Shown: positions 3,524-23,410 of the stretch, piece by piece | Numbering within the stretch: the first letter of the stretch is position 1 | Layout: each line of letters begins with the position of its first letter | Assembly (NCBI RefSeq): GCF_014639655.1 | Contig: NZ_BMGB01000001.1 | Coordinates: 496,001-560,000 of the forward strand | Source: Conyzicola nivalis | Lineage (GTDB): Bacteria > Actinomycetota > Actinomycetes > Actinomycetales > Microbacteriaceae | Direction of reading: 5' to 3' | Length of the DNA: 64,000 bases | Notes under the pieces: model-generated | The model's input: the letters and a program-made list of their open reading frames with translations, nothing else | What the model was told of the DNA's origin: nothing | The model's database searches: none | Position numbers and translations under genes: made by a program

Positions 3524-3568
3524 CGACAAACACGAAACGCTCTCCTCCGGGAGGGCGTTTCGTCGTTA
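3520..3568 (+). repeat. attL-like 49-bp direct repeat
   Basis: These 49 bases are repeated without mismatch at 30265-30313. The copy starts at the tRNA-Pro discriminator base, covers the encoded CCA and continues through the hairpin at 3535-3560. The base before the repeat (G here, C in the other copy) and the base after it (C here, A there) differ, so the repeat ends are sharp. A perfect repeat at a tRNA 3' end, 26.7 kb from its partner, is the classic footprint of site-specific integration. Confidence 0.85.
3535..3560 (+). terminator. Hairpin after tRNA-Pro, left copy
   Basis: AAACGCTCTCC and GGAGGGCGTTT form an 11-bp stem (one G-T pair) closed by TCCG. Only a weak T-rich tail (CGTCGTT) follows. 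It is placed where a tRNA terminator is expected and lies wholly inside the direct repeat. Confidence 0.6.
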
Positions 3569-3666
3569 CCGTCCTTTCCGACTTCGTGATCCAGACGGTG
3601 TTGCGGTGACAGGGCCCAGTAGCAATGCACTGGCCTACCGGCGCGCTAACGTAAGCTCATCTCACT

Positions 3667-4431
3667 ATGAGTATCGACAGCGACGTGGCTCCGCCAGAAT
3701 CTAAATTCAATGCCGTGCTCACTGCTGCGTCGGGATTGCCCGGAGTGCGGATTCATCGCGAGGCGTACTTGCGCCGTGCACTTGCGCGCTATTGCTCTGA
3801 CGAACAAGTTCAAAAGGCGGTTAACGAAAGCCCAGCCGCGGCCGGAATACCGTCCAACGTTATCGACAAAGCCGCAATGGATTCGATCAAGTACGAAACC
3901 GCAAAAGTCACCGGTCTTTCGGCCGCTGCAGGAATTCCCGGTGGCTTTGCACTCGTTGGCACCGTCCCAGCAGATTTTGCTCAGAACTTCGCCCACGTGC
4001 TTCGGATCGCACAGAAGCTTGCATATCTTTACAGCTGGCCCAACCTGTTCGCCGCGGATGGCGAAGAGCCTGACGACGCGACAAAGGGGATGCTCACACT
4101 CTTCGTCGGCGTGATGTTTGGCGCGCAAGCAGCAAATCAGGGTGTCACTGCAGTTGCAGGCATGTTGGCGAAGGAGGCTCTCCGCAAGCTGCCGCAACAG
4201 GCGCTCACCAAGGGAGTCATATATCCGATCGTTAAAGAGGTCTCCAAGAAACTTGGCGCGGAAATGACGAAGCTCGTTTTTGCCAAAGGGATGGCAAAAG
4301 TCATTCCTATCGTCGGCGCCGTTCTCAACGGAGGCGTGACTCTTGCAACGTATGCCCCGATGAGCTTGAGGCTTAAGAAGCACCTCGCCAGCTTGGAGCT
4401 GACCAAGCCGCACGCCGAGCCTGCAAGCTAG
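3667..4431 (+). CDS. EcsC family protein
   Basis: A 254-aa protein and the first gene inside the island. The middle carries the EcsC pattern: small-residue-rich helix GLSAAAGIPGGFALVGTVPA followed by DFAQNFAHVLRIAQKLAYLY, then several Ala/Gly-rich helices (FVGVMFGAQAANQG; GMAKVIPIVGAVLNGGVTL) that may associate with membrane. EcsC proteins are poorly understood; some sit in defence islands and may act on membranes. The ATG at 3667 has no strong ribosome site. The SNF2 gene starts 43 bases after its stop on the same strand, so it could be the first gene of that operon or independent. Base composition is well below the host average, supporting foreign origin. Confidence 0.7.
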   Translation: MSIDSDVAPPESKFNAVLTAASGLPGVRIHREAYLRRALARYCSDEQVQKAVNESPAAAGIPSNVIDKAAMDSIKYETAKVTGLSAAAGIPGGFALVGTVPADFAQNFAHVLRIAQKLAYLYSWPNLFAADGEEPDDATKGMLTLFVGVMFGAQAANQGVTAVAGMLAKEALRKLPQQALTKGVIYPIVKEVSKKLGAEMTKLVFAKGMAKVIPIVGAVLNGGVTLATYAPMSLRLKKHLASLELTKPHAEPAS

Positions 4432-4474
4432 ATAGGCTCGGTTCAGCGCAGCTCGTGGGGTAGGGGATCAGATA

Positions 4475-7321
4475 GTGACGTCGCAAATAGAGAGCCGCGC
4501 TTTCGCGCCCGGCTCAGTGGTCGTAGTTCGCGACGAAGAGTGGCTCGTGACCTCCGTCACCGATACCGTCGACGGGATACTCCTCAACGTCTACGGCCTC
4601 AGCGAACTGGTACGGGACACCACAGCGACGTTCTACGAAAGCCTCGACACGATCGAAGTTCTCGATCCGCGAGAAGCCCGAGTAATCGCCGATGATTCAC
4701 CTGGGTACCGACGTTCTCGCCTATGGGTCGACTCCACGCTCCGGAAGTCAGCGCTTCCACTCAGCGACGATCAGCCATCCGTCAGCACACGCATGCTCGC
4801 CGACGCTCTGCCGTACCAGCAAGCGGCGGTCCGTCAGGCGCTGAGCCGCGACAACTTGCGGCCGCGCATCCTCCTCGCCGACGCCGTTGGACTGGGCAAG
4901 ACGCTCGAGATCGGAATGATCCTCTCTGAGCTGGTTCGCAGAGGTCGCGGCGACCGCATTCTTATCGTCACCCCGAGGCACGTTCTCGAGCAGATGCAGC
5001 AAGAGATGTGGACACGTTTCGCGCTCCCATTCGTCAGACTCGATTCCCTCGGCATCCAACGAATCCGTCAGCTGCTACCCGCCACGCGCAACCCGTTCAC
5101 CTACTACAAGCGTGTCATCATCTCCGTAGACACACTGAAGAGCGAGCGTTACCTCGCCCACCTGCGTACTCAGAAGTGGGATGCGGTCGTCATTGACGAG
5201 TCGCACAACCTCACAAACAATAAGACACAGAACAACGCTCTCGCGAGGGTTCTCGCGCCGAACACGGAGGCCCTGATCCTCGCGTCCGCGACGCCTCACA
5301 ACGGGAAGCCTGAGTCGTTCGCTGAACTGGTCCGTCTTCTCGAGCCGACGGCGGTCACGCCGGATGGCGAGCTTGTCGTGGAAGAGGTGCGAAGACTTGT
5401 TATCCGACGCCATCGACAAAGCCCTGAGGTGAAATCTGTGGTCGGTGCAGATTGGGCCGAGCGGATGCCACCCCAACACGTCCTCGTAGAGCCTTCGCTG
5501 GAAGAACAGGCGATTGCAGTCGAACTCGACGGCGTTTGGTTGCATCCGACGGGTTCCGTGCCAAACTCGGGATCCAATTCCGCTCTCTTCCCTTGGACGC
5601 TCGCGAAAGCTTTTCTCTCCTCGCCGGCTGCTCTGGCCGACACCGTCACAGAACGACTTTCGAAGGTCCGTGGGGCCCGTACCGATGCCCATCGAGAACG
5701 GGAGGCCCTTGAGCGGCTCGCCTCTCTCGCCGCCTCCGCGCGCGAGACCCGTGCCGGAAAGTTCGCGGCGTTGGCGAAGCATCTCCGGGAGATCGGCGTG
5801 GGCAAAAATTCGCCTATGCGCGCCGTCGTCTTCGCCGAGCGGGTCGCGACTCTCGAATGGCTAGTCGATGCGCTGCGCGAGGAGTTCAAGCTGCCCGCGG
5901 ATGCCGTCGAAATCCTGCATGGCGGCCTCACCGATGACGAGCAGATGGGTGTAATCGAGAAGTTTAAGCTGGAGAGCTCCAATTTGCGCATTCTCGTGAC
6001 AGGAGATGTGGCCTCCGAGGGCGTCAACCTGCACAAGCAGTGCCACCATCTCGTCCACTACGACATTCCGTGGAGCCTGATCCGCATCGAGCAACGAAAC
6101 GGCCGCATCGACCGCTACGGGCAGAGGCATCGCCCTCAAATCACGACTCTTCTCTTGGATCCGGTCGGCACGGAGTTTAGCGGTGACATCAAGGTGCTCA
6201 CTCGTCTTCTAGAGAAAGAGGAAGAGGCTCGTCTTGCGCTAGGCGATTCCTCCGCCATTATGGGCCAGTACGACGTGGCCCGCGAAGAAGACATCGTGCG
6301 CAAAGTGCTGGCAGGCAAGGCCCAGCTCGACGAGGTCGTGCCCGACGTCGACGACGCACTCGCGCACGATCCGGTTCAGGCTTTTCTCGCGTCGTTGACC
6401 GCGGTGCCGCAAAACGCACCCGAAGCCGTGCCCGTTGCTGAAGCCGGCAGTGGTCTCTTCGCCAGCGACGTTGACTTTCTCCGTGAGGCACTGGAGGAGG
6501 CATTCATCACCCCGGGCTCGTCCGCAGAGGCGGGTGGTGTGGAGTGGCGGGACTTCGGCAATCAGAGCGTCGTCGAGCTCGCCCCGCCGGCCGACCTGCG
6601 TCAGCGTCTCGAGGTGCTCCCGCAGAGCTATCTCGCGCAGCGTCGTGTTGTGTCGAAGTTCGTGCTCGCGACATCCGTCACCAAGGCACAGCAGGTGCTT
6701 ACCGCCGCGCTCTCCGAGGGCTCGACCTGGCCTGACGCGCACTACCTCGGTCCGCTGCATCCGGTACTCGACTGGGCGGCCGACCGCGCCCTCTCGGCCC
6801 TCGACCGCAATCGGGTATTCGTTGTGTGCGGCGACGTTGAGGCGCCACGCGTCCTGTTGCAGGGCACGCTCACCAATCGTCGCGGCCAGACCGTCACGTC
6901 GGTGCACGTCGCCGTGGAGTTTCCCACCAGCAGCGAGGGCTTTCACAGCGAGCGCACCTACGCCACAGCCCGCGATATGCTCGCCGACGCCGGAGTCGAG
7001 ACCGGCGCCGTCAACGCCGGCGGTCTCGCGAATGCAGATGGGCTGACCCGCTTCATCGCCCCGTCGATCGATGCCGTGTCCAGCTGGATGCTGACGACGC
7101 TCGGTGCGGCAATGGATGCGACAGACGAGCGGGTGGATGCCTGGGCCAACCGGGTCGCCCGTTGGAAAGACGATGCGAATGCGCTCATTCAGACGCGCTA
7201 CATCAGGGAGCGTCGTGGCACAGTCGATCGCGAGAAAGAACTGCTCGAACAACTGCGCCCCGACAAGCGGGCCCTCGTGACACCACTTCTCGTGGTTGTG
7301 CCGCGCGGAGGAGAGAACTAA
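4475..7321 (+). CDS. SNF2-family helicase, DISARM DrmD-like
   Basis: A 948-aa helicase starting at GTG 4475. The N-terminal 100 residues form a beta-rich module (PGSVVVVRDEEWLVTSV). The SF2 core follows: Walker A ADAVGLGKT at about 134-142, DESH at 241-244, SAT-like motif LASATPHNG, and motif VI QRNGRIDRYGQ from about residue 540. A long C-terminal region after 600 has no motif I can name. Length and order match DrmD of class 1 DISARM and RapA-like SNF2 proteins next to adenine methylases. The stop TAA shares a base with the ATG of the methylase gene, so the two are translationally coupled. It probably remodels or translocates on DNA as part of a modification/exclusion complex; that role is inferred from context. 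Confidence 0.85.
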   Translation: MTSQIESRAFAPGSVVVVRDEEWLVTSVTDTVDGILLNVYGLSELVRDTTATFYESLDTIEVLDPREARVIADDSPGYRRSRLWVDSTLRKSALPLSDDQPSVSTRMLADALPYQQAAVRQALSRDNLRPRILLADAVGLGKTLEIGMILSELVRRGRGDRILIVTPRHVLEQMQQEMWTRFALPFVRLDSLGIQRIRQLLPATRNPFTYYKRVIISVDTLKSERYLAHLRTQKWDAVVIDESHNLTNNKTQNNALARVLAPNTEALILASATPHNGKPESFAELVRLLEPTAVTPDGELVVEEVRRLVIRRHRQSPEVKSVVGADWAERMPPQHVLVEPSLEEQAIAVELDGVWLHPTGSVPNSGSNSALFPWTLAKAFLSSPAALADTVTERLSKVRGARTDAHREREALERLASLAASARETRAGKFAALAKHLREIGVGKNSPMRAVVFAERVATLEWLVDALREEFKLPADAVEILHGGLTDDEQMGVIEKFKLESSNLRILVTGDVASEGVNLHKQCHHLVHYDIPWSLIRIEQRNGRIDRYGQRHRPQITTLLLDPVGTEFSGDIKVLTRLLEKEEEARLALGDSSAIMGQYDVAREEDIVRKVLAGKAQLDEVVPDVDDALAHDPVQAFLASLTAVPQNAPEAVPVAEAGSGLFASDVDFLREALEEAFITPGSSAEAGGVEWRDFGNQSVVELAPPADLRQRLEVLPQSYLAQRRVVSKFVLATSVTKAQQVLTAALSEGSTWPDAHYLGPLHPVLDWAADRALSALDRNRVFVVCGDVEAPRVLLQGTLTNRRGQTVTSVHVAVEFPTSSEGFHSERTYATARDMLADAGVETGAVNAGGLANADGLTRFIAPSIDAVSSWMLTTLGAAMDATDERVDAWANRVARWKDDANALIQTRYIRERRGTVDREKELLEQLRPDKRALVTPLLVVVPRGGEN

Positions 7322-10300
7322 TGCCGAACAGTGATGCGTTTATCGTCAGCGAGGACTGGATCAGCGAGAGCTATTTCACTTCGGATGCCACGAAGCAGTC
7401 GTATTTCGCCCGCGTGATCGAGAGACGCAAGGGTTGGGAGGCGCGAAAGGCCGAGCTGGGCAATAGCCCGCTAACCCGTTTCAGTGCGGTGCGCGGCGAG
7501 ATCTCGTCGCTAATTGTCGCTGCCGCCGACGAGTCGACCGGTGACGGTTCGCGAGCGGATGCCGCGCACGATCTCACCGCTCTGCTACACCGCACTCTCG
7601 GCTTCCACGACCCCGGCCGCGCGCAGCGAAGCAGCGGTCCGATCACCTGGGTGCGTTCTACCAGTGTCGACACCGATGTTGTGGCGCTCGTCGACGCGAT
7701 GCCCGCTGATTCGCTAGAGGACCTGCTCTCCAAAGAGACTGGGCGGCTCAGCGAGCCGTGGCTCGACGACGACGGCAAGGAGATAGCGAGCGTGGTGGCG
7801 CGGGCGCTGTCGTCGATCTTTGCCGACTCCGAATCTCCCGATTTCGCGGTCGTCTTCGCGGGCCGATGGACGCTCGTCGCCGAACGCTCCCGATGGGCGG
7901 AGGGCCGCTACCTGGCTATCGACGTGCAGCTCGTCGCCGATCGCAACGAGGTCAAGCGCGGCGGAGAGATCGACTCGGCACTCGCCGCGCTGCACTCCGA
8001 CTCGTTCATTCCTGAGGCGGACGGTTCGGTGTGGTGGAGTCTCACGCTCGACGACTCGATCAAACACACGGTGGGTGTGTCGCAGGACCTCCGCGAGGGC
8101 ATCCGGCTGTCCATCGAGGACATAGCCAACGAGGTCGTGCAGCGACGCGCGACGAAAGGCCTCGAACCCCTGCCCGACGATCAGGCGCAACCACTCGCCA
8201 TCCAGTCGCTGCGCTTTCTCTACCGTATTCTCTTTCTTCTCTTCGCCGAGGCGTCGCCAGAGCTCGAGGTGCTGCCGACCAATGCCGCTGATTACGACAA
8301 GGGGTATTCGCTCGATCGCCTGCGCGAGCTCGTGCAGGTGAAGATCGAGTCGCCGAAGGCGAAGAACGGCACCCACTTCTACGATTCGCTCGCCGTATTG
8401 TTCAGGCTCGTCGACCAGGGCCACACTCCGCCCAAGTCCGACGAGGAGCATGACGCCCTCACGTTCAACGCGCTGCGGGCAGACCTGTTCTCGTCGAGCG
8501 CTACCTCCCACATCGACGAGGTCGGGCTCGGCAACGAGGCGCTGCAGCGGGTGCTCGATCGTCTACTGCTCAGCAAGAAGCAGAACAACAAGCAGCGCGG
8601 CTTCATCTCGTACGCGGAGCTCGGCATCAACCAGCTCGGCGCCGTCTACGAAGGATTGATGTCGTATACCGGCTTCTTCGCGTCTGAGCCACTCTACGAA
8701 GTCGCGCCGAACGGTGATTCGAGCAAGGGCTCGTGGGTGGTTCCGGTGGCCCACGTCGATGCAGAAGCCGAGAACGCTGAAACCTGGATCGACCCGCACT
8801 TTGTGCGCCGCGAAGACGAGATCACGCAAGCAAGTGCGCCGGTCAAACACGACCGCGGCGAGTTCGTTTTTCGCTTGGCCGGCCGGGAGCGGCAGCAGTC
8901 TGCGTCCTATTACACCCCCGAGGTGCTGACCAGGTTCACGGTGTCCCAGGCGCTGGAAGAACTGCTCGACCAGGACGGCGTGGTGACGAGCGCCGAGGCC
9001 GTACTCGCTATCACGGTATGCGAGCCGGCCCTTGGGTCAGGCGCGTTCGCGATCGAGGCTGTTCGCCAGCTCGCGGAAGCGTATTTGAAGCGTCGCCAGA
9101 ACGAACTCGGCATGCGGGTGGACCCGGAGGAGTACACACGAGAGCTGCAGCGAGTCAAGGCCTACATTGCCCTGCACCAGGTGTACGGCGTCGACCTCAA
9201 TGGCACGGCGGTGGAACTCGCCGAGATTTCACTCTGGCTCGACACGATGGCTCCCGGACTCGACGCTCCTTGGTTCGGACTCCACCTGCGCCGGGGCAAC
9301 TCGCTCATCGGGGCGCGTCGTGCCGTCTACTCGGCGGGCCAAGTTGCCGATAAGTCGTGGCTGAAGGCAGTGCCGAGGGATGTCGCACTCGATGAATTCG
9401 ACGGCATAGGCGCCGGTATCCACCACTTCCTCCTTCCCGCCGAGGGATGGGGCGCTACCGCGGGCGCGAAGGAAGGCAAAGAATTAGCGCCGGCGGCTGT
9501 GACCGCGCTCAAGGCGTGGCGCCGGACGGTTGCGTTGAAACCCTCTAAGAAGCAGGTGGATGAGCTCGCCTCGATCTCGCAGCGCGTCGAGGTGCTCTGG
9601 GGCTTCGCGCGCCGGAGACTCGAGATCGCCGATCGCGAGGTGCGTCGGTCAATCCCCGTCTGGGGACGCGATGTCGAGACCGCAGGTGCCGTGACTCGCG
9701 AACAGATCGAAAGCTCTCTCGCCGACGCCAACGGATCCTATCGTCGACTCCGTCGCATCATGGATGCATGGAATGCGCTTTGGTTCTGGCCACTCACCGA
9801 CGCGGCCACTGGGGGAGTGGCGCCTCCCACAATGCAGCAGTGGATTGACGCTTGCCGACTGATTGTCGGTCGCACCGTTGAAGCGAAGCCGGCGGCTCTG
9901 CGCCAGGGGCAGGCGTCGCTTTCGGGCGGCCAGTCGTGGACCGAGCTTGATACCGAAGAGCAGATCGAGCTCGGCTACGCGGGTGCCGTACCGATTGATG
10001 ACGTGCTGGCCAAACACCCGTGGCTCGGCGTCTGCGAGGGCGTCGCAAACCAGCAGGGCTTCTTTCACTGGGAACTCGACTTCGCGCCGGTCTTCGAGCG
10101 CGGCGGTTTCGACCTGCAAGTGGGTAACCCGCCGTGGGTGCGCCCAGACTTCGATGAAGCGGCGTCGCTGGCGGAATCCGATGTGTGGTGGGCCTTGGTA
10201 AACAAGCCGCCGGAAGAAGTCGCTCGAGCACGACGTGCTACTGTGCTTGCCTTTGACGCGACCCGGGAGTCCTATCTATCCGATGTCACTTCCGTTGTAG

Positions 10301-11976
10301 CGTTGCGAGAGCGAGTCTCCGCGAAAACGGAATATCCGCATCTTGCCGGTTTGCGCCCCGACCTCTATCGCTGCTTCATGGAACAGACGTGGCGGCATGT
10401 TTCGCCGAGAGGGATAGTTGCGCTCATTCACCCCGAAACCCATTTCACGGACGAGAAGGCTGGGCGGCTTCGATCGGCGACGTATCGACGACTCCGGCGC
10501 CATTGGCAGTTCATCAACGAATTCTCATTATTTGAGATTCATCATCTCGTGTCGTATGGCATCCACGTGTACGGCGCCGAATCCACAACCGTCGATTTTG
10601 CGATGGCTACTTCTATTTATCATCCGTCGGTAGTTGAGAGGTCACTGCTTCATGACGGAAGCGGTCAGGAGCCCGGCCTTAAAGACCCAGATGGCAACTG
10701 GGACGTTCGCCCGCATCGCAACCGGATTATTCGGGTCACTGATGAAACACTCGTGACCTGGCACGCCATTCTCGAAGGTGTTGAAGTTCCCGTGGCGCAG
10801 ACTCGGATGGTGTACGCAGTAAACACCGATGTGGCCTCGGTCTTGGCAAAGCTCGTCGACGCGCCTCGAATCGCCAACCTAGGTTTGGAATTTAGCGCAG
10901 GGCTCATCGAAACCCAAGCGCGAGCCAAAAGAATAATTGAGCACAAATGGACTAGGCCGACGGAATGGGCTGACGTCGTGCTGCAAGGTCCTCACATCCA
11001 CGTCGCAAATCCTGCCTACAAAAGACCCAACCCGGCGTTGCTTCACAACCAGGACTGGTCTGCAACCGATCTTGAAGCGCTCGGTCCTGAAGAGATTCCG
11101 TCCACTTCGTATAAACGCGTTGCAAGCCTGGCTGTGTATAGAAACGCTTACGGCCATTCAACGTCTGCGACCGGCTCATCCCTCGACCTAACGAGACTCG
11201 CATGGCGAGGAATGGCAGCCAACACTGGTGAGCGAACTCTCATACCTGTCATCCTTCCGCCCGAGGTGGGACACGTGAACGTAGTGTTCTCGGCGGGCAA
11301 AGCGGGGCTTGGTGTCTCCTCCCTAATCGGAGCGCTAGCCGGAATGTCGTCCCTGCTCGGTGATTTCACTATTCGCATCTCACCAAAAAGCAATATTTAC
11401 ATGTCCTCCGCCGAGCGGGTTCCAATGGTTGATCGACAGGCGCTCTTGCCGGCTCTGTCCTTGCGCCTGATGCGTCTGAATGCTGTTAGTGCCCAATACG
11501 CGCAACTTTGGACTGATTCATGGACTTCTGAGAACCTCGCGGACAAGTGGACTGGCGGACTGCAATTCGACGGGAGACGAGAACTTGGACTAGTGAATAG
11601 TGTGTGGGGCAGGGACACCCCGCTGCGTCGGGCATCGGACAGGCGCCAAGCGCTTCTCGAGATCGATGCTCTCGCCGCGATCGCTTTCGGCGTAACAGCT
11701 GACGAACTCTGCACTATCTACCGCACACAGTTTCCGGTGCTGTATGGGTACGACCACGAAAGTCACTACTACGACGTGAACGGGAGATTGGTACCCAACC
11801 CGATATTGAGCATCTGGAAGAAGAAGGGCGATCTGATCTCGGACGAGGAGCGCACCGCGACCAATCAGGCGGGTAACTCTTATGAGTACAAGTTGCCGTT
11901 CGTGACCCTCGACCGAGAGGCTGACATGCGGCAGGCGTACACCCACTTCGAGACAATTCTGAAGGAGCGCACGTGA
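7321..11976 (+). CDS. Eco57I-like N6-adenine DNA methyltransferase, DrmMI/PglX-like
   Basis: A 1551-aa protein; the ATG at 7321 overlaps the upstream TAA by one base. Methylase motifs: X-like SYYTPE (Tyr530-531), SAM-binding motif I CEPALGSGAF (567-576) and catalytic motif IV NPPW (936-939), an adenine-N6 signature. The 360 residues between motifs I and IV form an unusually long insert. The first 520 residues contain no PD-(D/E)xK I can see, so it looks like a methylase without its own nuclease, like DrmMI or PglX rather than a complete type IIG enzyme. After motif IV the DNA becomes much more AT-rich (about 10200-11600): sixty bases from 10501 hold 24 G/C, against 39 from 9001. That is where a target recognition domain is expected, suggesting an exchanged specificity module. 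Confidence 0.88.
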   Translation: MPNSDAFIVSEDWISESYFTSDATKQSYFARVIERRKGWEARKAELGNSPLTRFSAVRGEISSLIVAAADESTGDGSRADAAHDLTALLHRTLGFHDPGRAQRSSGPITWVRSTSVDTDVVALVDAMPADSLEDLLSKETGRLSEPWLDDDGKEIASVVARALSSIFADSESPDFAVVFAGRWTLVAERSRWAEGRYLAIDVQLVADRNEVKRGGEIDSALAALHSDSFIPEADGSVWWSLTLDDSIKHTVGVSQDLREGIRLSIEDIANEVVQRRATKGLEPLPDDQAQPLAIQSLRFLYRILFLLFAEASPELEVLPTNAADYDKGYSLDRLRELVQVKIESPKAKNGTHFYDSLAVLFRLVDQGHTPPKSDEEHDALTFNALRADLFSSSATSHIDEVGLGNEALQRVLDRLLLSKKQNNKQRGFISYAELGINQLGAVYEGLMSYTGFFASEPLYEVAPNGDSSKGSWVVPVAHVDAEAENAETWIDPHFVRREDEITQASAPVKHDRGEFVFRLAGRERQQSASYYTPEVLTRFTVSQALEELLDQDGVVTSAEAVLAITVCEPALGSGAFAIEAVRQLAEAYLKRRQNELGMRVDPEEYTRELQRVKAYIALHQVYGVDLNGTAVELAEISLWLDTMAPGLDAPWFGLHLRRGNSLIGARRAVYSAGQVADKSWLKAVPRDVALDEFDGIGAGIHHFLLPAEGWGATAGAKEGKELAPAAVTALKAWRRTVALKPSKKQVDELASISQRVEVLWGFARRRLEIADREVRRSIPVWGRDVETAGAVTREQIESSLADANGSYRRLRRIMDAWNALWFWPLTDAATGGVAPPTMQQWIDACRLIVGRTVEAKPAALRQGQASLSGGQSWTELDTEEQIELGYAGAVPIDDVLAKHPWLGVCEGVANQQGFFHWELDFAPVFERGGFDLQVGNPPWVRPDFDEAASLAESDVWWALVNKPPEEVARARRATVLAFDATRESYLSDVTSVVALRERVSAKTEYPHLAGLRPDLYRCFMEQTWRHVSPRGIVALIHPETHFTDEKAGRLRSATYRRLRRHWQFINEFSLFEIHHLVSYGIHVYGAESTTVDFAMATSIYHPSVVERSLLHDGSGQEPGLKDPDGNWDVRPHRNRIIRVTDETLVTWHAILEGVEVPVAQTRMVYAVNTDVASVLAKLVDAPRIANLGLEFSAGLIETQARAKRIIEHKWTRPTEWADVVLQGPHIHVANPAYKRPNPALLHNQDWSATDLEALGPEEIPSTSYKRVASLAVYRNAYGHSTSATGSSLDLTRLAWRGMAANTGERTLIPVILPPEVGHVNVVFSAGKAGLGVSSLIGALAGMSSLLGDFTIRISPKSNIYMSSAERVPMVDRQALLPALSLRLMRLNAVSAQYAQLWTDSWTSENLADKWTGGLQFDGRRELGLVNSVWGRDTPLRRASDRRQALLEIDALAAIAFGVTADELCTIYRTQFPVLYGYDHESHYYDVNGRLVPNPILSIWKKKGDLISDEERTATNQAGNSYEYKLPFVTLDREADMRQAYTHFETILKERT

Positions 11977-14900
11977 GCGAACTGCTGCCCACCCGCCTGA
12001 CCCAGCGAATAAGAGCATCGCTCGTCGACTACCTCACGACAACGTTCGCCCTCTCAGATGATGACGCGCAGCGTGAGCTCGAGAGGTTTCTTGTGCACGA
12101 GACTGAGGGTATTTTTCGCGGTCCGTTCGTGCGCACCCGGTTGCCGTACGGCCCTGCGGCCGCGGGATGGGAACGGGCGCTTGAGTGGTACCCGCGAGAG
12201 TTCACCCCCTACGGGCACCAGGCCAAAGCGTTCAGGCGGCTCTCTTCCGCGGCATCCGTCAATGCGCGCCCTCAGCCGACGCTGGTGACCACGGGAACCG
12301 GCTCGGGCAAGACCGAGGCGTTTCTTGTGCCGATCATCGATCACGTCCTCCGCGCTCGCCGCGAGAACATCACGGGGGTTAAAGCGCTCATTCTCTACCC
12401 GATGAACGCGCTCGCCAACGACCAGGCGAAGCGGCTCACCGAGTTGCTGACCAGCGACCCGCGGCTCTCGGGTGTGACGGCTGCGCTGTACACAGGTGAG
12501 CAGTCGGAGAAGCGCACTCGCGTTTCGGAGAAGGGGCTCATCACCGATCGCACAGTCATTCGGCAGAGTGCTCCGGACATTCTTCTCACCAACTACAAGA
12601 TGCTCGATCAGCTGCTGCTTAGGCATGAAGATGCCAAGCTCTGGTCGGCCTCGGCGACGAGTCTGCAATACGTTGTGCTCGACGAGTTCCATATCTACGA
12701 CGGAGCCCAGGGGACCGACGTTGCGATGCTTCTGCGTCGTCTCGGCGCAACGCTCAAGAGCTACTGGTCCGACGACTCGCCCGTGACTAGAAGTGACTGG
12801 TCGCGCCCGCTTGGCCGGGCCACCCCGGTCGCCACCTCGGCGACACTCGGCGACGGCGGCGACCCGGGCGCCATGCTCGCCTTCGCCCGAACCGTGTTCG
12901 GCGACGAGTTTGATGCGACAAGTGTCGTGACCGAGGCACGCGTCACTGTCGACGAGTGGGCCCGGTCGGAGGTCGAGACGACTCCCGACGTGACTGTCGA
13001 CCTGCTCGTTGGCATAAACGACGCGGTCGATCGGCTTGGCGACGGTGCTGACGCGTCGCACATCGCGTCGGAGGTGCTGAAGCAGCTCTGGGGCGCCGAG
13101 GTTATCGTTGGCGACTCTTCGCTATCGCTCATGCGGTATTCAACGCGGCATCCGCTCATTCGCACGATTGTTCGGGCAACCAAGGATGCCGTGGGGATCG
13201 ACGACCTTGCACGCACGGTATTCGAGGGCACCGGGGCATCCGCTGCCCCCGCGGACGTGCGGGTCGACGCCGTCGTCAATCTCGTCGCCATGCTCAGCCA
13301 CGTGCGCAAAGTCTGCGGCCGGGCCGCGGTCGGTATCGACGTTCACCTGTGGGTGCGCGAACTAAGTCGCATCGATCGCGCCGCCGCGGCGCAGCCGGCA
13401 TTCCGCTGGACCGACGACGGAGTGACCTTGGGGCACGACGCGATCGATGTCACCGACAGTGGGGCGTTCGACGCCTATCCGGCGATCTATTGTCGCCACT
13501 GTGGCCGGTCGGGCTGGGGGGTTGTTCTGGCAGCCACGGGTGCCGATCTCGATGCGGACGACTCCGACATCCGTCGCAGGCACCTGGTCGGCGACGACCG
13601 CTTTCGGCCGCTGATATTCGCGCCAAAGGAAGCGGATTACGTCTACTTCGAACAGCGCGATCGGCAGATTGAGGGTCTGCGCTGGCTGCATACCCGCAAC
13701 CGTCAGCTCGTCGCCGCCCTGCCCGCCGATGGCGACGCGGATTTCGATGCCGGCTATGTGCTGCCCGTACTCACGCACGTTGGGCTCGATGCCGGCGAGA
13801 GGTCGAAAGACGACTGGTGCCCGTCCTGCCTGAAGGCCGACGGCATTCGCTTCCTCGGCAGCGCCATCGCAACGCTGCTCTCTGTGACCCTGTCGAGCAT
13901 GTTCGGCGAATCATCCATCGACGTGGGGGAGAAGAAGGCGCTCGTCTTCACCGACAGTGTGCAGGATGCCGCACACCGGGCCGGCTTCGTTCAGGCGCGC
14001 TCGCACGTACTGACGCTGCGCGCCGCTCTGCGCAGCGCACTCGGAAATGCGAGCGTGAGCCTCGACCAACTCGTCGACGGCGCGATGCGCGACGCAGGAG
14101 TCGACAGGTTCGCACGGTACCGGCTGGTGCCGCCAGACCTCACCGGTAACGACCTGTTTCGCGAGTACTGGTCACCAGCCGGCGACCACGCGGCTCGACG
14201 TTCGGTGACTGCCGTGCGCAACCGGCTGCTCTTCGACGCGGTGCTCGAATTCGGTTTGCAGAGCCGCGTCGGTCGAACCCTCGAACTCACCGGCAGCGTC
14301 ACGGCCGAGGTCGACGGCGGACCGGCCGCCGCCCTCGCCGCCATCGCGCGGAACGTCTGGCTCGAGTACGACCAGGGCGACCTACTGGGCGGCGCCGAGA
14401 TTGCGGCCCCCACCAGTGCCGCAGGAGCGCTGTGGGTGCGCGGGGTACTCGAACGCATGCGAGAGCAGGGAGCGATTCAGCATCCGTGGCTCGACAGCTA
14501 TGTGAAAGAAGACGGCAATCGCTACCGGATCTGGGGCGGCCGCAACCGCGCGGTTGGAGTACCCGCGTTTCCGAGTGGACGCCCAGCGCCCGCCTTTCCC
14601 CGAGTCGGAGTGAAGACTGCTGTCAGGCGCGACAACCTCGACAACGTCTCATCGTCGCAGGGCTGGTACGCGCTTTGGGCTGCCAAGTGCCTTTCTGGGC
14701 TCACCGCGAGTGAGGGGGCAAAGCTCGCGCGAATGCTCTTCGTCGAACTCGACAAGCGCGACGTCATCGGGTCGGTCAAGACTGACTCGGCCGCCGATGT
14801 ATATTTTCTACGCAGCGATCAGATTGTGCTTGCACAAGCGCACAGCGACGAACTCGATAGTGGTCGCCTGCAGCTTCGGTGCGACGTATGCGACAACCTC

Positions 14901-17900
14901 GTACCCGGAAGTGCTTCGGTCATCGACCAGCTCGCGGATGGACCGTGCACGGTCTCGCGCTGTCCAGGACGCCTGAAGCGTCGCGCTGGAAAGGGCGGTT
15001 TTTACCGCGGCCTGTATGCGTCGAGCGATATGCGTCGCGTCGTGGCGCGGGAGCACACGAGCCTGCTGGAGTCGGCCACCCGGTTGCAGTACGAGACGGC
15101 CTTCAAGTCGAGAACCGCAGAACCGGATGCTCCCAACGTGCTCGTCGCGACGCCAACCCTCGAGATGGGTATCGACATCGGCGACCTCTCGGCGGTGTTT
15201 CTCGCTTCGCTGCCGCGCACTGTCGCTTCGTACGTGCAGCGAGTTGGCCGTGCCGGCCGTCTCACGGGAAACTCGCTGAGCATCACCTACGTCACCGGCC
15301 GAGGCGAAAATTTGCCACGAGTCGGAGATCCGCTGTCGGTAATCAACGGGAGCGTGCAACCGCCCGCGACGTATCTGTCGGCCGAAGAGATCTTGCGGAG
15401 ACAATTCCTGGCGTTCCTCGGTGACCGCATCGCTCGGGATCCTCTAGCGGATCATCCCAAGACCGCGCAGGGCGCACTCGGCGGAATAGGCGAGGGCACC
15501 TATCTCGGAAGAGTCGCGACATCCGCCACCCATGACGCCCTCAGAACGTTCCTGAATTCCTTCGACGGGGTATCCGACGAAGTCGTGGGCCGAATCGAAG
15601 GGTGGATTTCTCGCGGCGAGTCTGACGTGAGCGAATTGGACCGTTTTCTCGCTCGGGCTGCAGCGCGGTGGCACGCGACCGTCGATGAACTCGGCTTTCG
15701 CAAGGCGAAACTCGTCGAAATAATCCCTGAGCTGGAGTTGAAGGCGTTATCGCCAGCTGCGACCGACGATGACAAGCGTGCGGAGCGATCGGCGCGGGCA
15801 GCACTGAGAATGACTGAGGGACAGCTCGGACGGCTGAAGGGCGAGTACTGGATCAGTGTGCTTGAGGAGTACGGAATCTACCCGAACTACACTCTCCTCG
15901 ACGATTCAGTGAACCTCGATGTCGCGATGAGTTGGTTCGACCCGGAGACTCAAAAATGGGAATCCGACACGATGAATTACCAGCGCGGCTCCGCTAGCGC
16001 ATTGACTGAATTCGCGCCCGGAGCCACGTTCTATTCGCGTGGTTTCGTTGTCAAAGTCGACGCCGTCGATCTCGGCCAGGAGCCCACTGTAACGACGCCC
16101 TGGACCTACTGCGCCGCCTGCGGATTCGCGAGAGCAGAGCTGCCTGGGATGGTCGCACTGACAGCGTGCCCGCGCTGCGGAAGCGGCTCGATCGCCGACG
16201 TCAAGCAGCGACTCGACACCGTGCAGATGTCCGGGGTCTCCGCACAGATCCGCCGTGACGACGCCCTCATCAACGACTCGCGCGACGAACGTGAGCGCAC
16301 CCGGTTCACCGTGCTGACTGCGGCGGACATCAACGATTCGAACGTAAAAGCCCAGTGGTTCGTCGACGGGTATGACTTCGGCATGCGCCACCTGTCCGAC
16401 GTCGACATCCGCTGGATCAACCTCGGCCCAGCCGGCAAACAGGCGATTTCGCGAGCGCTAGCCGGACACGAAGTGATGAGCCCCTTATTCCGAGTCTGCG
16501 ACACCTGCGGCAAGCTCGACGAATCGAGCAAGTCGAATGGCAGAGACGAGCATCGCCCTTGGTGCCCCCGCCGCGACGACCACGACGAGCACACTCGTTC
16601 CGTCGCACTGATGCGCCACCTTCACACCCAAGGTGTGGTCGTTCGGCTCCCGACAGTACTGAAGTACGACAAATTCGCCGTGCCGAGCCTATCGGCCGCT
16701 TTGCTTCTCGGTTTGCGAGAGCTGATGGGTGGCGCACCGGACCACATCCAGATCGCCCAGATTACTGAGCCTCTCGGCGGGGCGGGCGAAGTCGCCGACG
16801 CGCTGCTCCTTCACGACGTCGTACCCGGAGGCACCGGATACCTCGCAGAGCTCGCCCGACCGGCGCGAGTCTGGGCGCTTCTCCACGCCGCATGGGAACG
16901 AGTGCGTGACTGCCCATGTCGCGAAGAAGAACGACTTGCCTGTCACCGGTGCTTGCTGCCGTTTGCTGCGCCGTGGCAGACCGGCGAGGTCGCACGGGAG
17001 ACCGCAGAAGTGCTGTTGCGCCGCATCCTCGCGTCCGGCGGCGACGAGGTGCCGGATGTCGCGCCCTCCGCTCACGGATGGAAGCTGCTCGACGCGCCGC
17101 CCGCTCCTGTAATCGACGAATCTCACTTGGAAGCCCGATTCCGAGAGGCCTTATCCGCACGACTGTCCGCTGTCGGCGCAACGGTGAAGGAGACTCCAAC
17201 GGCTCTTGGCAACCAACTAACAGTCACGCTGCCGGGCGACTCTCGGCTGTGGTGGCTGGAGCCGCAGGTGCATCTTGGCGCAACGGTGCCGGACTTCGTG
17301 CTCCGCTGCTCTGACACGACCATTCCGAGGGTCGCGATTTACACAGATGGCTTCACGTTCCACGCGACCGTTGCGCACAACCGAATTGCCGACGACGCGC
17401 ACAAACGATCCGTGCTCCGCGCCCAGGGTTACGCAGTACTGGCCGTCAGCTGGAACGACTTGACCATGGACTCGGTGGCCGATCCTTGGTGGTACAGCCA
17501 GGCAGCCGTGCAGAACGCGCTGACGCAAAACGTCAACCTCTCCGCGGGCGTGGTCGATGCGTCCCGCGGAGGCCCTCTGACCATGCTCATCCGCTGGATG
17601 CAAACGCCCGAACCTGACCGTTGGCGACAATTCGGCGATGCCGTACCGCTACTCCTCGCCGCTGCCCCGCTTGGAGAGACTCCCGTCGGCATTTCAGCGT
17701 CAGAGCTCGCTGCATTCCAGGTGCTAGGCACTGTGCAGAGCGGAACGGGTGCGTTTGGGTTGACTGTGGATGCTGGGCCACACGTCTCCTTCGTTGCGCT
17801 GCTCAGCCATTCGAGCGGCGCTCTCGTCACAGACGTGGGGCTCGTCCTCGATAATCGTACGGGCACCATGGTCGAGCCCACCTTCTCCGAGAGCTGGCGG

Positions 17901-18284
17901 CGATGGCTGACGTTGTCCAATCTGATGTTCGCCAGACAGGCGCCATTCGCGATAGCCGGAGTGTCGTCGATCGAGAAGAATCTGGTTGCTGGCGATCCCG
18001 CGGCGGTTTCGTTCTCGCCGGTGTGGGCGGGACTCCTCGAAATGGCGGCCAGCGATGAAGAACGCGAACTGCTCCGTGAACTGGTGGACGCCAACATCGA
18101 GACCCCGGAACTCGGCGTCGAGGTCGGAGACGGCATCCCCGTTTCCATCGCGTGGCCGGCACACAAGATCGCCGTAGAACTGGGCCTCGAGAGTCGAGAC
18201 ATCGAAGATCTACGCACAACCGGCTGGATGGTCGTTCCGGCAATCGTTCACGACATCGTTGCCGCATTGGAAGGAAGCCGATGA
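11973..18284 (+). CDS. DEAD/DEAH helicase-DUF1998 fusion with C-terminal Vsr-like nuclease domain
   Basis: A 2103-aa protein; GTG at 11973 overlaps the methylase TGA (GTGA). Helicase part: Walker A TGTGSGKT (107-114), YPMNALANDQ, DEFH (Asp237) and motif VI QRVGRAGR (from 1089). Several Cys pairs look like zinc ribbons (YCRHCG, CPSC, CDVC, YCAACG with CPRCG, VCDTCG). The DUF1998/MZB end has VPGGTGYL and the Cys cluster CPCREEERLACHRC (from Cys1647). The last 330 residues contain VPDF (Asp1774), AIYTDG (Asp1792) and a following HKRSVLRAQGY, the layout of Vsr/DUF559-like PD-(D/E)xK nucleases. MrfA/YprA joins helicase and DUF1998 in a shorter chain; DISARM splits them as DrmA and DrmB. This protein resembles DrmA plus DrmB plus nuclease. 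The nuclease call is the least certain part. Confidence 0.82.
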   Translation: MSELLPTRLTQRIRASLVDYLTTTFALSDDDAQRELERFLVHETEGIFRGPFVRTRLPYGPAAAGWERALEWYPREFTPYGHQAKAFRRLSSAASVNARPQPTLVTTGTGSGKTEAFLVPIIDHVLRARRENITGVKALILYPMNALANDQAKRLTELLTSDPRLSGVTAALYTGEQSEKRTRVSEKGLITDRTVIRQSAPDILLTNYKMLDQLLLRHEDAKLWSASATSLQYVVLDEFHIYDGAQGTDVAMLLRRLGATLKSYWSDDSPVTRSDWSRPLGRATPVATSATLGDGGDPGAMLAFARTVFGDEFDATSVVTEARVTVDEWARSEVETTPDVTVDLLVGINDAVDRLGDGADASHIASEVLKQLWGAEVIVGDSSLSLMRYSTRHPLIRTIVRATKDAVGIDDLARTVFEGTGASAAPADVRVDAVVNLVAMLSHVRKVCGRAAVGIDVHLWVRELSRIDRAAAAQPAFRWTDDGVTLGHDAIDVTDSGAFDAYPAIYCRHCGRSGWGVVLAATGADLDADDSDIRRRHLVGDDRFRPLIFAPKEADYVYFEQRDRQIEGLRWLHTRNRQLVAALPADGDADFDAGYVLPVLTHVGLDAGERSKDDWCPSCLKADGIRFLGSAIATLLSVTLSSMFGESSIDVGEKKALVFTDSVQDAAHRAGFVQARSHVLTLRAALRSALGNASVSLDQLVDGAMRDAGVDRFARYRLVPPDLTGNDLFREYWSPAGDHAARRSVTAVRNRLLFDAVLEFGLQSRVGRTLELTGSVTAEVDGGPAAALAAIARNVWLEYDQGDLLGGAEIAAPTSAAGALWVRGVLERMREQGAIQHPWLDSYVKEDGNRYRIWGGRNRAVGVPAFPSGRPAPAFPRVGVKTAVRRDNLDNVSSSQGWYALWAAKCLSGLTASEGAKLARMLFVELDKRDVIGSVKTDSAADVYFLRSDQIVLAQAHSDELDSGRLQLRCDVCDNLVPGSASVIDQLADGPCTVSRCPGRLKRRAGKGGFYRGLYASSDMRRVVAREHTSLLESATRLQYETAFKSRTAEPDAPNVLVATPTLEMGIDIGDLSAVFLASLPRTVASYVQRVGRAGRLTGNSLSITYVTGRGENLPRVGDPLSVINGSVQPPATYLSAEEILRRQFLAFLGDRIARDPLADHPKTAQGALGGIGEGTYLGRVATSATHDALRTFLNSFDGVSDEVVGRIEGWISRGESDVSELDRFLARAAARWHATVDELGFRKAKLVEIIPELELKALSPAATDDDKRAERSARAALRMTEGQLGRLKGEYWISVLEEYGIYPNYTLLDDSVNLDVAMSWFDPETQKWESDTMNYQRGSASALTEFAPGATFYSRGFVVKVDAVDLGQEPTVTTPWTYCAACGFARAELPGMVALTACPRCGSGSIADVKQRLDTVQMSGVSAQIRRDDALINDSRDERERTRFTVLTAADINDSNVKAQWFVDGYDFGMRHLSDVDIRWINLGPAGKQAISRALAGHEVMSPLFRVCDTCGKLDESSKSNGRDEHRPWCPRRDDHDEHTRSVALMRHLHTQGVVVRLPTVLKYDKFAVPSLSAALLLGLRELMGGAPDHIQIAQITEPLGGAGEVADALLLHDVVPGGTGYLAELARPARVWALLHAAWERVRDCPCREEERLACHRCLLPFAAPWQTGEVARETAEVLLRRILASGGDEVPDVAPSAHGWKLLDAPPAPVIDESHLEARFREALSARLSAVGATVKETPTALGNQLTVTLPGDSRLWWLEPQVHLGATVPDFVLRCSDTTIPRVAIYTDGFTFHATVAHNRIADDAHKRSVLRAQGYAVLAVSWNDLTMDSVADPWWYSQAAVQNALTQNVNLSAGVVDASRGGPLTMLIRWMQTPEPDRWRQFGDAVPLLLAAAPLGETPVGISASELAAFQVLGTVQSGTGAFGLTVDAGPHVSFVALLSHSSGALVTDVGLVLDNRTGTMVEPTFSESWRRWLTLSNLMFARQAPFAIAGVSSIEKNLVAGDPAAVSFSPVWAGLLEMAASDEERELLRELVDANIETPELGVEVGDGIPVSIAWPAHKIAVELGLESRDIEDLRTTGWMVVPAIVHDIVAALEGSR

Positions 18285-20482
18285 CCACCATCGTCATGAC
18301 CAGCTCGGTCAACAAGACCGACGGCGCTATCAAAAAGAAGCTCTGGGCGTTCATCGAGAAACTCTCCCAGAACGACGAGATGCTCGGCCTGCACATCGAG
18401 CCGATGAAAAACCCCAGAGACTCGAGAGTCAGGACCGGCCGCGTAGACGACAACTTCCGGGCCGTCCTCTTTCGCCTTGAAGGTGGGGGTGCGGAGCGGA
18501 CCTACGTCTACATGGGAACTTGGCCCCACGATGAAGCCATCGAGATCGCGTGTTCGACCGTTCTGCGAATAAACCCGATCAATGGCGTAGCCGAGCTGAT
18601 TGCAGAGGGTGCCCCGGAAACGTTGACGCCCGTTGACGTGCCTGCTTCTCCTTCTGTGGAAAAGCCGGCCCTCGTGTCGACGGCGACACCCCTGCTCGAG
18701 TCCGCCGGGATCACTCTTCTCGACCTCACTGACGTGCTCGGGATGGACCCGGCCCTCGCGTCCCGCGCTATGGCGGCGGCCGACGAGAACGAGCTATTTG
18801 GCGTCGCTGAGATCGCGCCGACATGGCAGGGGATCGCGCTGATCGATCTGGCGGCAGGGACCTCTGTCAATGGCGTACTCGCCGCGTTGGATGCGGAGCC
18901 GGTAGTCGCGCCTGAGCGCCACGACGATGCGGCACTCATCGAGGCGATGAAGCACCCGGCAGCTCAGATGACGTTCTCATTCGTCCACGACAATGAAGAA
19001 CTTCGCCGAGCGATTGAAGACGATAATTTCGCCGCATGGAAGGTATTCCTCCACCCCGAACAACGTCGATACGTCGACCGAAACTACAATGGCCCATTCC
19101 GGCTTTCAGGTGGTGCAGGGACAGGCAAGACAGTGGTCCTACTCCATCGTGCACGTCGTCTTTGGCTCGAAAACCCGGACGCTCGGATCGTGTTGACAAC
19201 GTTCACCGTCAACCTGGCTGATAATTTACGCCGAGACCTGCGGCAGCTGGATCCCGGGGTGAAGATCGCAGCAGCTCTCGGCGAGCCTGGAGTTTATGTT
19301 TCCGGCGTCGATTCGCTCTCATTCGGTGCGCTTCGTGAAAATCCCACTGAGGTGCCGGCCGCAACGCAGGCGGTGCTCGGTGAGAGCCGAACCATCAGAG
19401 GGCCGGCCACCTCCTCGGACCGCTGGTCGAGCGCACGTGCGGCCAGCGGCGTAGCCGACAGCCCCAACGGATACCTCTCGCCCACGTTCTTGGAGGCAGA
19501 GTACGAAGCGATCATTGTGCCCAACACCATCACAACCCGCGAGGAGTATTTTACCGTTCGGCGTCCTGGCCGAGGAGTGGCGCTTGACCGGGCGAAGCGG
19601 GATCAGGTGTGGAAGATCGTGGCGGCCTATCGCACCCTGTTGAAGATGCAGCAGTCTGCGGACTTCAGTGAGGTTGCAGCCGTCGCTGCTCAGCTCTACG
19701 ACGGTGGCACTGTTGCGCGTCCTGCCGATCATGTGCTCGTGGATGAAGGCCAAGACCTCGTCCCCGCCAAATGGCGACTAATTCGCGCGCTGACCGAACC
19801 GAGCCCAAACGACCTATTCATCGCAGAGGATTCGCATCAGCGCATCTATGGGCAGCCCACTATCCTCTCGAGGTGGGCGATCAAGATTGTCGGGCGCTCG
19901 CAGCGGCTGACTCTGAACTATCGGACCACAGCGCAGAACCTTGGCTACGCGGTCGCAGTGCTTGAGGCAGGTCACTACGAAGACCTAGAGTCCGAAGACG
20001 AGTCCACTGCTGGGTATCGCTCGTCGAGGCGCGGTCCAGTTCCATTGCGTCTCGGATTCGCGACGCTCTCAGAAGAACTCGATGCGGTCGCGTCCACGCT
20101 ACAGAGATGGTCCGCCGACGATCCCGGTGGATCAATCGCCGTCCTGGTGCGCACGAATGGATTTGCAGACACAGTCACGCGAGGTCTGGCAGAGCGGGAC
20201 GTAAAGGCCATGCGGGTGGACAAAGGAGAGCCACCCGTCGGAGCAGTCGCGGTCATGAACATGTACCGGGCCAAGGGCACAGAATTCTCGCGAGTGTGCA
20301 TAGTCGGGGCGAGTGCTGAGAGCATCCCTAACCCGACCACGATGAAGAGTGCTGCTGCACATGGTGACGAGGCGGATGCACTACTGCGCGAGCGCTCGCT
20401 ACTCTACGTAGCCGCGACGCGCGCGCGCGACGCTCTGATGATCACGTGGACGGGCAACCCGAGTACGTTGCTGTCGGAGTGA
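18281..20482 (+). CDS. UvrD/Rep-type SF1 helicase with RelE-like N-terminal domain
   Basis: A 733-aa protein; ATG at 18281 overlaps the previous TGA (ATGA), making it the fourth coupled gene. Residues 1-85 resemble RelE/ParE-type toxins: a helix (KLWAFIEKLSQN), GLHIEPMKN, RVRTGRVDDNFRAVLF, then a strand ending YMGTWPHDEAIEIA. A linker follows, then the SF1A core: Walker A GGAGTGKT (Lys283), Walker B DEGQD (from Asp488), LTLNYRTT, MNMYRAKGTEFS and motif VI YVAATRARDAL. It should translocate on single-stranded DNA with ATP. Whether the RelE-like part is an active ribonuclease or a structural domain cannot be told. Such helicases are not part of canonical DISARM. Confidence 0.85.
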   Translation: MTTIVMTSSVNKTDGAIKKKLWAFIEKLSQNDEMLGLHIEPMKNPRDSRVRTGRVDDNFRAVLFRLEGGGAERTYVYMGTWPHDEAIEIACSTVLRINPINGVAELIAEGAPETLTPVDVPASPSVEKPALVSTATPLLESAGITLLDLTDVLGMDPALASRAMAAADENELFGVAEIAPTWQGIALIDLAAGTSVNGVLAALDAEPVVAPERHDDAALIEAMKHPAAQMTFSFVHDNEELRRAIEDDNFAAWKVFLHPEQRRYVDRNYNGPFRLSGGAGTGKTVVLLHRARRLWLENPDARIVLTTFTVNLADNLRRDLRQLDPGVKIAAALGEPGVYVSGVDSLSFGALRENPTEVPAATQAVLGESRTIRGPATSSDRWSSARAASGVADSPNGYLSPTFLEAEYEAIIVPNTITTREEYFTVRRPGRGVALDRAKRDQVWKIVAAYRTLLKMQQSADFSEVAAVAAQLYDGGTVARPADHVLVDEGQDLVPAKWRLIRALTEPSPNDLFIAEDSHQRIYGQPTILSRWAIKIVGRSQRLTLNYRTTAQNLGYAVAVLEAGHYEDLESEDESTAGYRSSRRGPVPLRLGFATLSEELDAVASTLQRWSADDPGGSIAVLVRTNGFADTVTRGLAERDVKAMRVDKGEPPVGAVAVMNMYRAKGTEFSRVCIVGASAESIPNPTTMKSAAAHGDEADALLRERSLLYVAATRARDALMITWTGNPSTLLSE

Positions 20483-20599
20483 GGAAAGTGTCGCTTCGCC
20501 AGGCGAGGGCCAGGTTGAACTCGGGGCGAATGAATCAGTGCGACGACTTGGCAGCCAAACGCGCAGCGCGGGGAGGCGGCACTTCCATAAACTCTGAGC

Positions 20600-21175
20600 A
20601 TGAACTGGACGGTTGCCCGAGATGAGCTAGTCACCGCGGCGCCCGTTTCCCCACTAGAAACGGGTGTGGTTGCGAGCTCGGGTATCTACGCCTGGTGGGA
20701 TACTCGCAGTGCGCTCGCCTCGCGCTGGCCCCACGCTTTTCCGCTAGTCGATTCGTCACGACCGTTGTATGTGGGCGTCGCAGCGAAGCAAAGTCTTTCA
20801 AGCCGCGTTGTCGAGACGCACTTATTGACGACGCGACGCTCAGCACTCCGATGTTCACTCTCCGCTCTCCTGAGCGAGCCACTGGAACTGCTACCGGGCG
20901 CAGTCCGACACCCCCGTGGCGGCAAGTTTGGGCTAGAGAAATCGCAGGAATCCCGGTTGACGGAATGGATGGTTACCAACTTGAGAGTGACGTGGGTCGA
21001 GCACAGCGAGCCGGGCAGTGTCGAGAAGCCGATAATTCGGGACACCCTACCGACTCTCAATTTCACTTACGCGACCGGCAGTCCATATCGCGCACGGATG
21101 AAGGCTCTCCGGATGGAGTTTCGAGCGAGCGCACCGCTGGTCTGGGAGTCGAAAGATAGTCGCGCTATTTATTAG
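20600..21175 (+). CDS. GIY-YIG-like nuclease family protein
   Basis: A 191-aa protein with SGIYAWWD (GIY at 28-30) and LYVGVAAKQSLSSRVVETHL (YVG at 57-59), the two halves of the GIY-YIG motif, an Arg in the following helix (Arg69) and a Glu/Asn pair (about Glu142, Asn154) where metal and scaffold residues are expected. Segment SALRCSLSALL is typical of the actinobacterial version of the family. It begins 117 bases after the UvrD-type helicase on the same strand, too far for coupling, so it may be an independent gene or an accessory. It converges on the XRE-ImmA gene. Confidence 0.72.
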   Translation: MNWTVARDELVTAAPVSPLETGVVASSGIYAWWDTRSALASRWPHAFPLVDSSRPLYVGVAAKQSLSSRVVETHLLTTRRSALRCSLSALLSEPLELLPGAVRHPRGGKFGLEKSQESRLTEWMVTNLRVTWVEHSEPGSVEKPIIRDTLPTLNFTYATGSPYRARMKALRMEFRASAPLVWESKDSRAIY

Positions 21176-21364
21176 AAACCTTTGCCGCGCTTACAGCGGT
21201 CGAACTATGCAATTTTTTCGACCTGCGATGCCCGAGATGACGTTGCGTTTCGGGTGAGGGACAGCGGTCCCAAACTACGCCCCACAACTTCGACTACAAA
21301 AAACAGCCAGTGAACGCAGGCATTAGGGGCGCCCTCAGGGCCGATAATGCTCTATATCGCAAAC

Positions 21365-23380: not shown

Positions 23381-23410
23381 CAGATCCTTCACACAACCCG
23401 AGACGACTCA

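Follow-up and report, generated by a model that had tools for sequence, protein, structure and literature searches.

The closest described relative of the genes discussed here is ARMADA type II, an ArmA-B-C-D anti-phage system reported by Bell et al. in a 2025 preprint (PMC12458937). According to that preprint, the Escherichia coli system requires each of its four genes individually and acts directly and non-abortively in dye assays. Of its eight motif mutants, six lose protection; the other two, in Walker B of ArmD and in the S-adenosylmethionine (SAM) motif of ArmB, lose it in part only. The ArmC of ARMADA type II also has inserted domains that are BrxA-like and MarR-like. The preprint records helicase and methylase genes common to ARMADA and class 1 DISARM. 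E. coli BREX is reported to use methylation as its mark of self (PMC6326788). Our subject is a 64,000-nucleotide stretch of Conyzicola nivalis (NZ_BMGB01000001.1, positions 496,001-560,000), hereafter the window. It carries four coupled genes that a first-pass annotation had taken for a variant of DISARM. Very probably they are an intact-looking ARMADA type II operon, predicted from its sequence to act against phage by the mechanism we propose below. We place them there because gene order, domains and eight functional residues match the published E. coli system.

The four genes lie on the + strand in uninterrupted open reading frames (ORFs) at 4475-7321, 7162-11976, 11973-18284 and 18152-20482. 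Two of these open upstream of the likely starts: the ArmB frame, 1604 amino acids from a TTG at 7162, and the ArmD frame, 776 amino acids. The probable start codons are the ATGs at 7321 and 18281, and with them the three junctions overlap by 1 (TAATG), 4 (GTGA) and 4 (ATGA) bases, as the first-pass annotation had said, along with naming the families correctly. ArmA (4475..7321, 948 residues) is a SNF2 helicase of the BrxHII/RapA/DrmD kind, matching Pfam SNF2-rel_dom at 58 bits, above cut-off, as well as Helicase_C. ArmB (7321..11976, 1551 residues) is a PglX-like amino-methyltransferase with an Eco57I match of 52.1 bits, above cut-off; its C-terminal part (10402..11955, ORF residues 1081-1598) would be the target-recognition part, and we return to it below. 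ArmC (11973..18284, 2103 residues) is a YprA-family helicase that passes the cut-offs for DEAD (72.5 bits), Helicase_C (42.9) and the MrfA zinc-binding family MZB (37.4). The Pfam MZB, or DUF1998, zinc-binding part covers residues 1573-1661 (16689..16955), and a predicted Vsr-like PD-(D/E)xK nuclease domain follows at about residues 1720-1833 (17130..17471). ArmD (18281..20482, 733 residues) is a GajB-like UvrD helicase, with UvrD-helicase at 66.8 and UvrD_C at 65.4 bits, both above cut-off. Its N-terminal domain (18281..18601) is called RelE-like in the literature, a label with weak sequence support here.

Set beside E. coli ARMADA type II, the operon has the same gene order, the same four protein families and the same Vsr-like end to ArmC, and both systems have a GajB-like ArmD bearing an extra N-terminus and lie in a tRNA-adjacent defence island (PMC12458937). 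The proteins are 31-36% identical to those of E. coli. The residues mutated in the preprint, in strain NCTC 12900, were ArmA K136/D236, ArmB N971/G605, ArmC K110/D234 and ArmD K266/D454. Our reference was an E. coli plasmid homologue, L035, in which the eight occupy identical numbers. Window and L035 agree at 34% of positions in ArmA, 36% in ArmB, 31% in ArmC and 34% in ArmD, and the window keeps all eight residues: ArmA K142 (Walker A) and D241 (Walker B), ArmB N936 (NPPW) and G572 (SAM motif), ArmC K113/D237, and ArmD K283/D488. The operon combines coupled open frames, kept catalytic residues in all four proteins and the A-B-C-D order, and its ArmC has several zinc-binding CxxC modules, with pairs invariant in nine of nine rows that include C507/C510, C616/C619, C970/C973, C1380/C1383, C1399/C1402 and C1509/C1512. 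Profile searches tell the same story. A single DrmD model is the top PADLOC match for ArmA of both the window and E. coli (302 and 335 bits); ArmB goes best to type IIG models in both (1408 and 944 bits), the two leading models being shared in reverse order. We also built a maximum-likelihood tree from 31 proteins of YprA type. Window ArmC falls there in one group with the ArmC proteins of E. coli and of viral contigs (18 rows; Shimodaira-Hasegawa-like approximate likelihood ratio, SH-aLRT, 99); DruE of E. coli and the second copies of YprA branch apart.

How widespread is this arrangement? Apart from the genome of the window itself, 8 of 148 relatives have a full-length ArmC orthologue, 44-70% identical; in one of them (G104) it shows as several alignment pieces of a single frame. 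Scanning species genomes turned up at least 553 relatives, the best 80 of which we analysed as loci. All 80 are Actinomycetota by organism name, so that the counts cover the actinobacterial branch only, and distances run from the first possible start codon, which makes negative values no real overlaps. An ArmD frame opens at most 50 nucleotides past the end of ArmC in 78 of the 80. ArmD is in two frames in one of these loci (L106) and cut by a contig end in another (L055); the exceptions are a contig that ends before ArmD (L117) and a GmrSD-like gene standing between ArmC and ArmD (L087). This is the survey of gene order that the first-pass annotation had asked for, and by it the SF1 helicase is no chance neighbour: ArmD is integral, and the four genes make a self-standing system, as it had suggested, in the order published for ARMADA type II. 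ArmA lies upstream in 51 of the 80; most of the others are truncated by a contig end or by the 10-kb limit of the flank. Where the end of ArmB is visible (64 of 80), it lies at most 100 nucleotides before ArmC in 37 loci and farther away in 27.

The ArmB-ArmC gap reaches at least 0.7 kb in 25 of those 64 (for example L083, L066, L108, L124 and L092, and including L098 and L113, to which we come below). One protein was scanned from each of ten such inserts: four match no PADLOC family, and six match GmrSD/HEC-06, a PtuA/AriA-like ATPase, DRT UG17, PDC-S28, PDC-S02 and, in L100, part of DrmA (59 bits). At least in some loci, then, the junction hosts other defence genes. Second ArmD-like or UvrD copies adjoin ARMADA in L067, L073, L103, L108 and L034, the last with a pair of helicase and DUF1998 genes upstream as well. 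In G044, whose ARMADA is the nearest to that of the window (70% in ArmC), a YprA helicase of DruE type precedes it (L036:4287-9293, 613 bits), which recalls the E. coli array. In E. coli itself, megablast with the L035 plasmid armC found the gene in 518 of 5426 complete genomes, and in strain ABW_A19 the ARMADA set follows Zorya II genes and a pair resembling Druantia III, an array published for other E. coli strains (PMC12458937). Finally, the viral contig stretch L137:2859-16002 has YprA, SNF2 and PglX-like genes, in an order resembling that of ARMADA type I.

The ends of ArmC and ArmD deserve separate attention. We aligned 49 rows of each, picked from 86 ArmC C-termini and 89 ArmD N-termini. 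All 49 ArmC rows share E1720, D1774, D1792, G1793, H1797, D1808 and R1812 (numbered as in the window), and the restriction-endonuclease family MTES_1575 of Pfam matches 24 of the 49 at E≤1, the best at 6.4e-6. The underlying pattern, PDF...DG..H...D..KR, is one that we take to be Vsr-like. Such an end is also described for ArmC in PMC12458937, and the nuclease that the first-pass annotation put here stands as a prediction, carried by the kept residues and weak in the window taken alone. For ArmD, which it had called a RelE-domain helicase, the window protein does align with E. coli ArmD across the N-terminus, and F24, R51, R54, R60 and H83 are near-invariant among the 49; direct evidence for RelE itself is weak.

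Several results weigh against our assignment and should be set out together. Window ArmC reaches only E 0.0014 with MTES_1575, under the Pfam cut-off, and a PDB sequence search of its C-terminus gave chance-like matches only, to repeat proteins. The ArmD N-terminus of the window has no Pfam match; ParE_like, as weak support for RelE, matches 2 of the 49 N-termini (best E 0.0063), and hhalign against a two-sequence HigB alignment gave E 0.019 and a probability of 2.5%. Nor did PDB sequence searches help elsewhere, with no matches for ArmB and nothing useful for the ArmD N-terminus. The ArmC tree was made by a quick method and has long branches, 18 of its rows are of unusual composition, and it holds no DISARM or ARMADA type I protein of certain identity.

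If the operon is ARMADA type II, we would expect it to work as follows. ArmB, with its partners, would methylate a sequence in the host DNA and so leave a mark of self. Incoming phage DNA without that mark would be engaged by the Arm complex; ArmA and ArmC would use ATP to travel along the DNA and open it, and the Vsr-like nuclease at the C-terminus of ArmC would damage it. ArmD would assist in strand processing, its N-terminal domain perhaps contributing. The host cell would survive the infection, given that direct, non-abortive action is reported for E. coli ARMADA.

That last step bears on the least improbable alternative, in which the operon is ARMADA but relies on the RelE-like domain of ArmD to bring about abortive infection. 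The domain is kept across the 49 aligned proteins with its near-invariant residues, which counts in favour; the dye assays on the E. coli system point the other way (PMC12458937), and we regard abortive action as unlikely. Defence islands hold many dead genes, and the operon might be a decayed copy without function; with four open frames and eight of eight catalytic residues kept, this is very unlikely.

The remaining alternatives would put the genes in other families, and here the company they keep is informative: among the matches listed for the 14 island proteins scanned there is no DrmC (whose absence the first-pass annotation had rightly noted), no DruH, no PglZ, BrxC or BrxL, nor a set of genes that would make up Druantia III or Zorya II. 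BREX and Pgl likewise have a PglX-like methylase and a BrxHII-like helicase, but without PglZ among these matches, and with the PADLOC PglX model at only 6.3e-7 on ArmB, the PglZ-PglX pairing of BREX is not recognised here. The first-pass reading was a class 1 DISARM in which DrmA and DrmB had fused, DrmC had been lost and a UvrD-type subunit gained. DISARM class 1 does share a DrmD-like helicase and a DrmMI/PglX-like methylase with the window, DrmD is the best PADLOC model for ArmA at 302 bits (BrxHI and BrxHII models give 191 and 185), and DrmMI scores up to 173.5 bits on ArmB. The profile check that the annotation had proposed listed DrmD-, BrxHI/HII-, DrmMI- and PglX-related matches. With the NCBIfam family DISARM_DrmD the score is 326 bits, below the cut-off of 610. 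Among the matches listed for the third protein (25 of 47 families), DrmA reaches at most 63 bits and there is no DrmB, and ArmC groups with its E. coli namesake in the tree. DISARM has a gene of its own for the OB-CON-DUF1998 canopy (PMC12458937), whereas the window has one 2103-residue protein. This is the ordinary undivided YprA layout rather than a fusion; the DISARM split is the exception. The window has neither the DrmA/DrmB split nor a recognised DrmC, its DrmD score is short of equivalog rank, and an SF1 helicase is there instead; profile searches, tree and published gene order together leave the DISARM reading almost no credence. ArmA also scored 71 bits with PLD_Helicase and 121 bits with phospholipD_antiphage (cut-off 1100), the best-scoring stretches lying in its helicase part.

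A Druantia-type system, with the third protein as DruE, is equally hard to credit. Its top PADLOC match is indeed DruE3, at 286 bits, and Druantia type III likewise has a large YprA helicase with a C-terminal nuclease; a clear DruE-like protein, that of L036, reaches 613 bits, the tree separates ArmC from DruE, and the window differs in having a restriction-endonuclease/Vsr-like rather than phospholipase D (PLD)-type nuclease, a methylase, and neither DruH nor other Druantia partners among the matches listed. As for MrfA-like repair helicases beside a modification gene with no part in defence, the other option in the first-pass annotation, the YprA family and the MrfA zinc-binding domain of the third protein fit it, but a C-D order fixed in 78 of 80 loci, the island setting and a tree that leaves MrfA-like proteins outside (their rows long and poorly filled) make it scarcely tenable.

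ARMADA type II being our reading of the operon, we turn to what its relatives suggest about ArmB. Some actinobacterial ARMADA II loci probably carry a switch, in which a tyrosine recombinase next to ArmC would invert a cassette and so exchange the specificity-bearing C-terminus of ArmB; the window would then be the fixed form, with ArmB residues of about 1081-1598 as the exchangeable target-recognition part. A recombinase of about 280 residues precedes ArmC in 6 of the 80 loci (L055, L064, L068, L087, L098 and L113), and five of the six have an ArmB C-terminal piece of 50 to about 1000 residues on the other strand; the contig of the remaining one, L064, starts within the recombinase. Contigs end at this very spot in five of the six, and we therefore searched for a complete locus. 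Recombinase matches at E≤1e-50 occur in 21 of 347 genomes of the order, and the window's genome has none. Those more than 60% identical, in G159 and G299, adjoin ArmC with inverted ArmB pieces. Among 18 others (39-49% identity, flanks of at most 1.5 kb), 17 have no adjacent Arm match and one has a short ArmD-like match. Pfam Phage_integrase matches the recombinases of L113 and of L159. A recombinase with an inverted ArmB C-terminal piece or cassette can thus be seen beside ArmC in L159:8067-15591 (the G299 locus) and L161, besides L098, L113, L068, L055 and L087; the inverted cassette belongs to these relatives, and the window has only its counterpart within ArmB.

The G299 locus lies within a 1.09-Mb contig and reads ArmA, full ArmB (8067-12887), inverted cassette (14652-13087), recombinase, ArmC, ArmD. 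Its full ArmB would be the expressed copy and the cassette a silent one. When the two copies are compared in bins, stretches identical at 50 of 50 bases take turns with divergent patches. Of these, the large V3 is at chance level (16-25 matches per 42-50 aligned bases), the smaller V1 has 23-29 of 47, and the short V2 has 35-42 of 50. Among 49 ArmB proteins, that of the window and those of 48 of the 80 loci, conservation is 0.418 in the patches and 0.529 in the identical blocks, a difference attained by 3 of 514 circular shifts. The patches in this test came from a single locus, and V2 alone, at 0.464, lies close to its neighbours (0.486 and 0.485). In Williamsia, L098 has a 194-nucleotide inverted repeat (95%) with a 12-base core and looks like an inversion already done, one that left ArmB broken; the arrangement could instead be an assembly error. 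The core motif, with at most one mismatch, was not found in the first 12,000 bases of L113, L068, L064 and L055, and in L087 it occurs solely within the ArmC region. Because of this, the recombination sites must differ between lineages or be longer, which speaks against a single shared short site. Taken together, the recombinase-linked cassette points to a putative switch of methylase specificity.

The principle of invertible specificity is not new, since phase variation is known for BREX, Pgl and restriction-modification; what may be new is to meet it in ARMADA. For BREX, inverted copies of pglX alongside recombinases were reportedly noted in 2015. BREX phase variation by a homopolymer tract is mentioned in PMC6326788, PMC9009780 cites a paper on phase variation of Streptomyces Pgl, and PMC12707154 treats the phase variation of restriction-modification systems at large. 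Invertible ARMADA genes were not found in open-licence literature on ARMADA, DISARM, BREX, phase variation and recombinases, and the main text of PMC12458937 does not contain "phase vari", "invert" or "inversion".

The operon lives in a defence island of about 27 kb (3524..30300, right edge approximate), with a guanine-plus-cytosine content of 0.61 against 0.69 on both sides. Its left edge is a tRNA-Pro(ggg) gene (3447..3523, +), which looks like a hot spot, because a 12-kb stretch of G001, a genome from this genus, ceases to resemble the window where the tRNA ends and continues with other low-GC DNA. In the G003 stretch the tRNA is absent and similarity runs only up to window position 2700. 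A search for a repeat of the tRNA 3' end as an att site at the far edge matched only the tRNA itself, no integrase is among the island proteins scanned, and the flank genes tested at the right edge showed no matching order in relatives. Between tRNA and ArmA lies a PDC-S30 candidate (3667-4431, a strong PADLOC match), and just past ArmD a GIY-YIG_2 nuclease-type gene (20600-21175). Both were considered as ARMADA subunits and rejected, with homologues in 2 and 0 of the 80 flanks, respectively, many of these contig-cut. Farther on, an RmrA-like helix-turn-helix and ImmA/IrrE protein with a 262-residue frame upstream (21365-23249, - strand) is a possible toxin-antitoxin-type defence pair. It is followed by a 463-residue frame with no Pfam match (23411-24802, - strand), whose SHDDSDH motif recalls metallo-beta-lactamase folds by eye, a GmrSD type IV restriction enzyme (24958-26811), and a CAP12/Pycsar-type TIR effector with a 182-residue frame before it (28279-29689), no cyclase being recognised among the scanned island proteins.

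The window operon is an additional copy of a known system, and what it adds is an apparently intact actinobacterial ARMADA II together with its surroundings. It also illustrates how easily ARMADA is misread as DISARM or restriction-modification, PADLOC-DB 2.0.0 (2023) matching ArmB best to type IIG enzymes and ArmA best to DrmD. An invertible ArmB, if true, would make the discrimination of self from non-self through ArmB methylation testable, because two states of one strain should then differ only in methylation motif and phage range.

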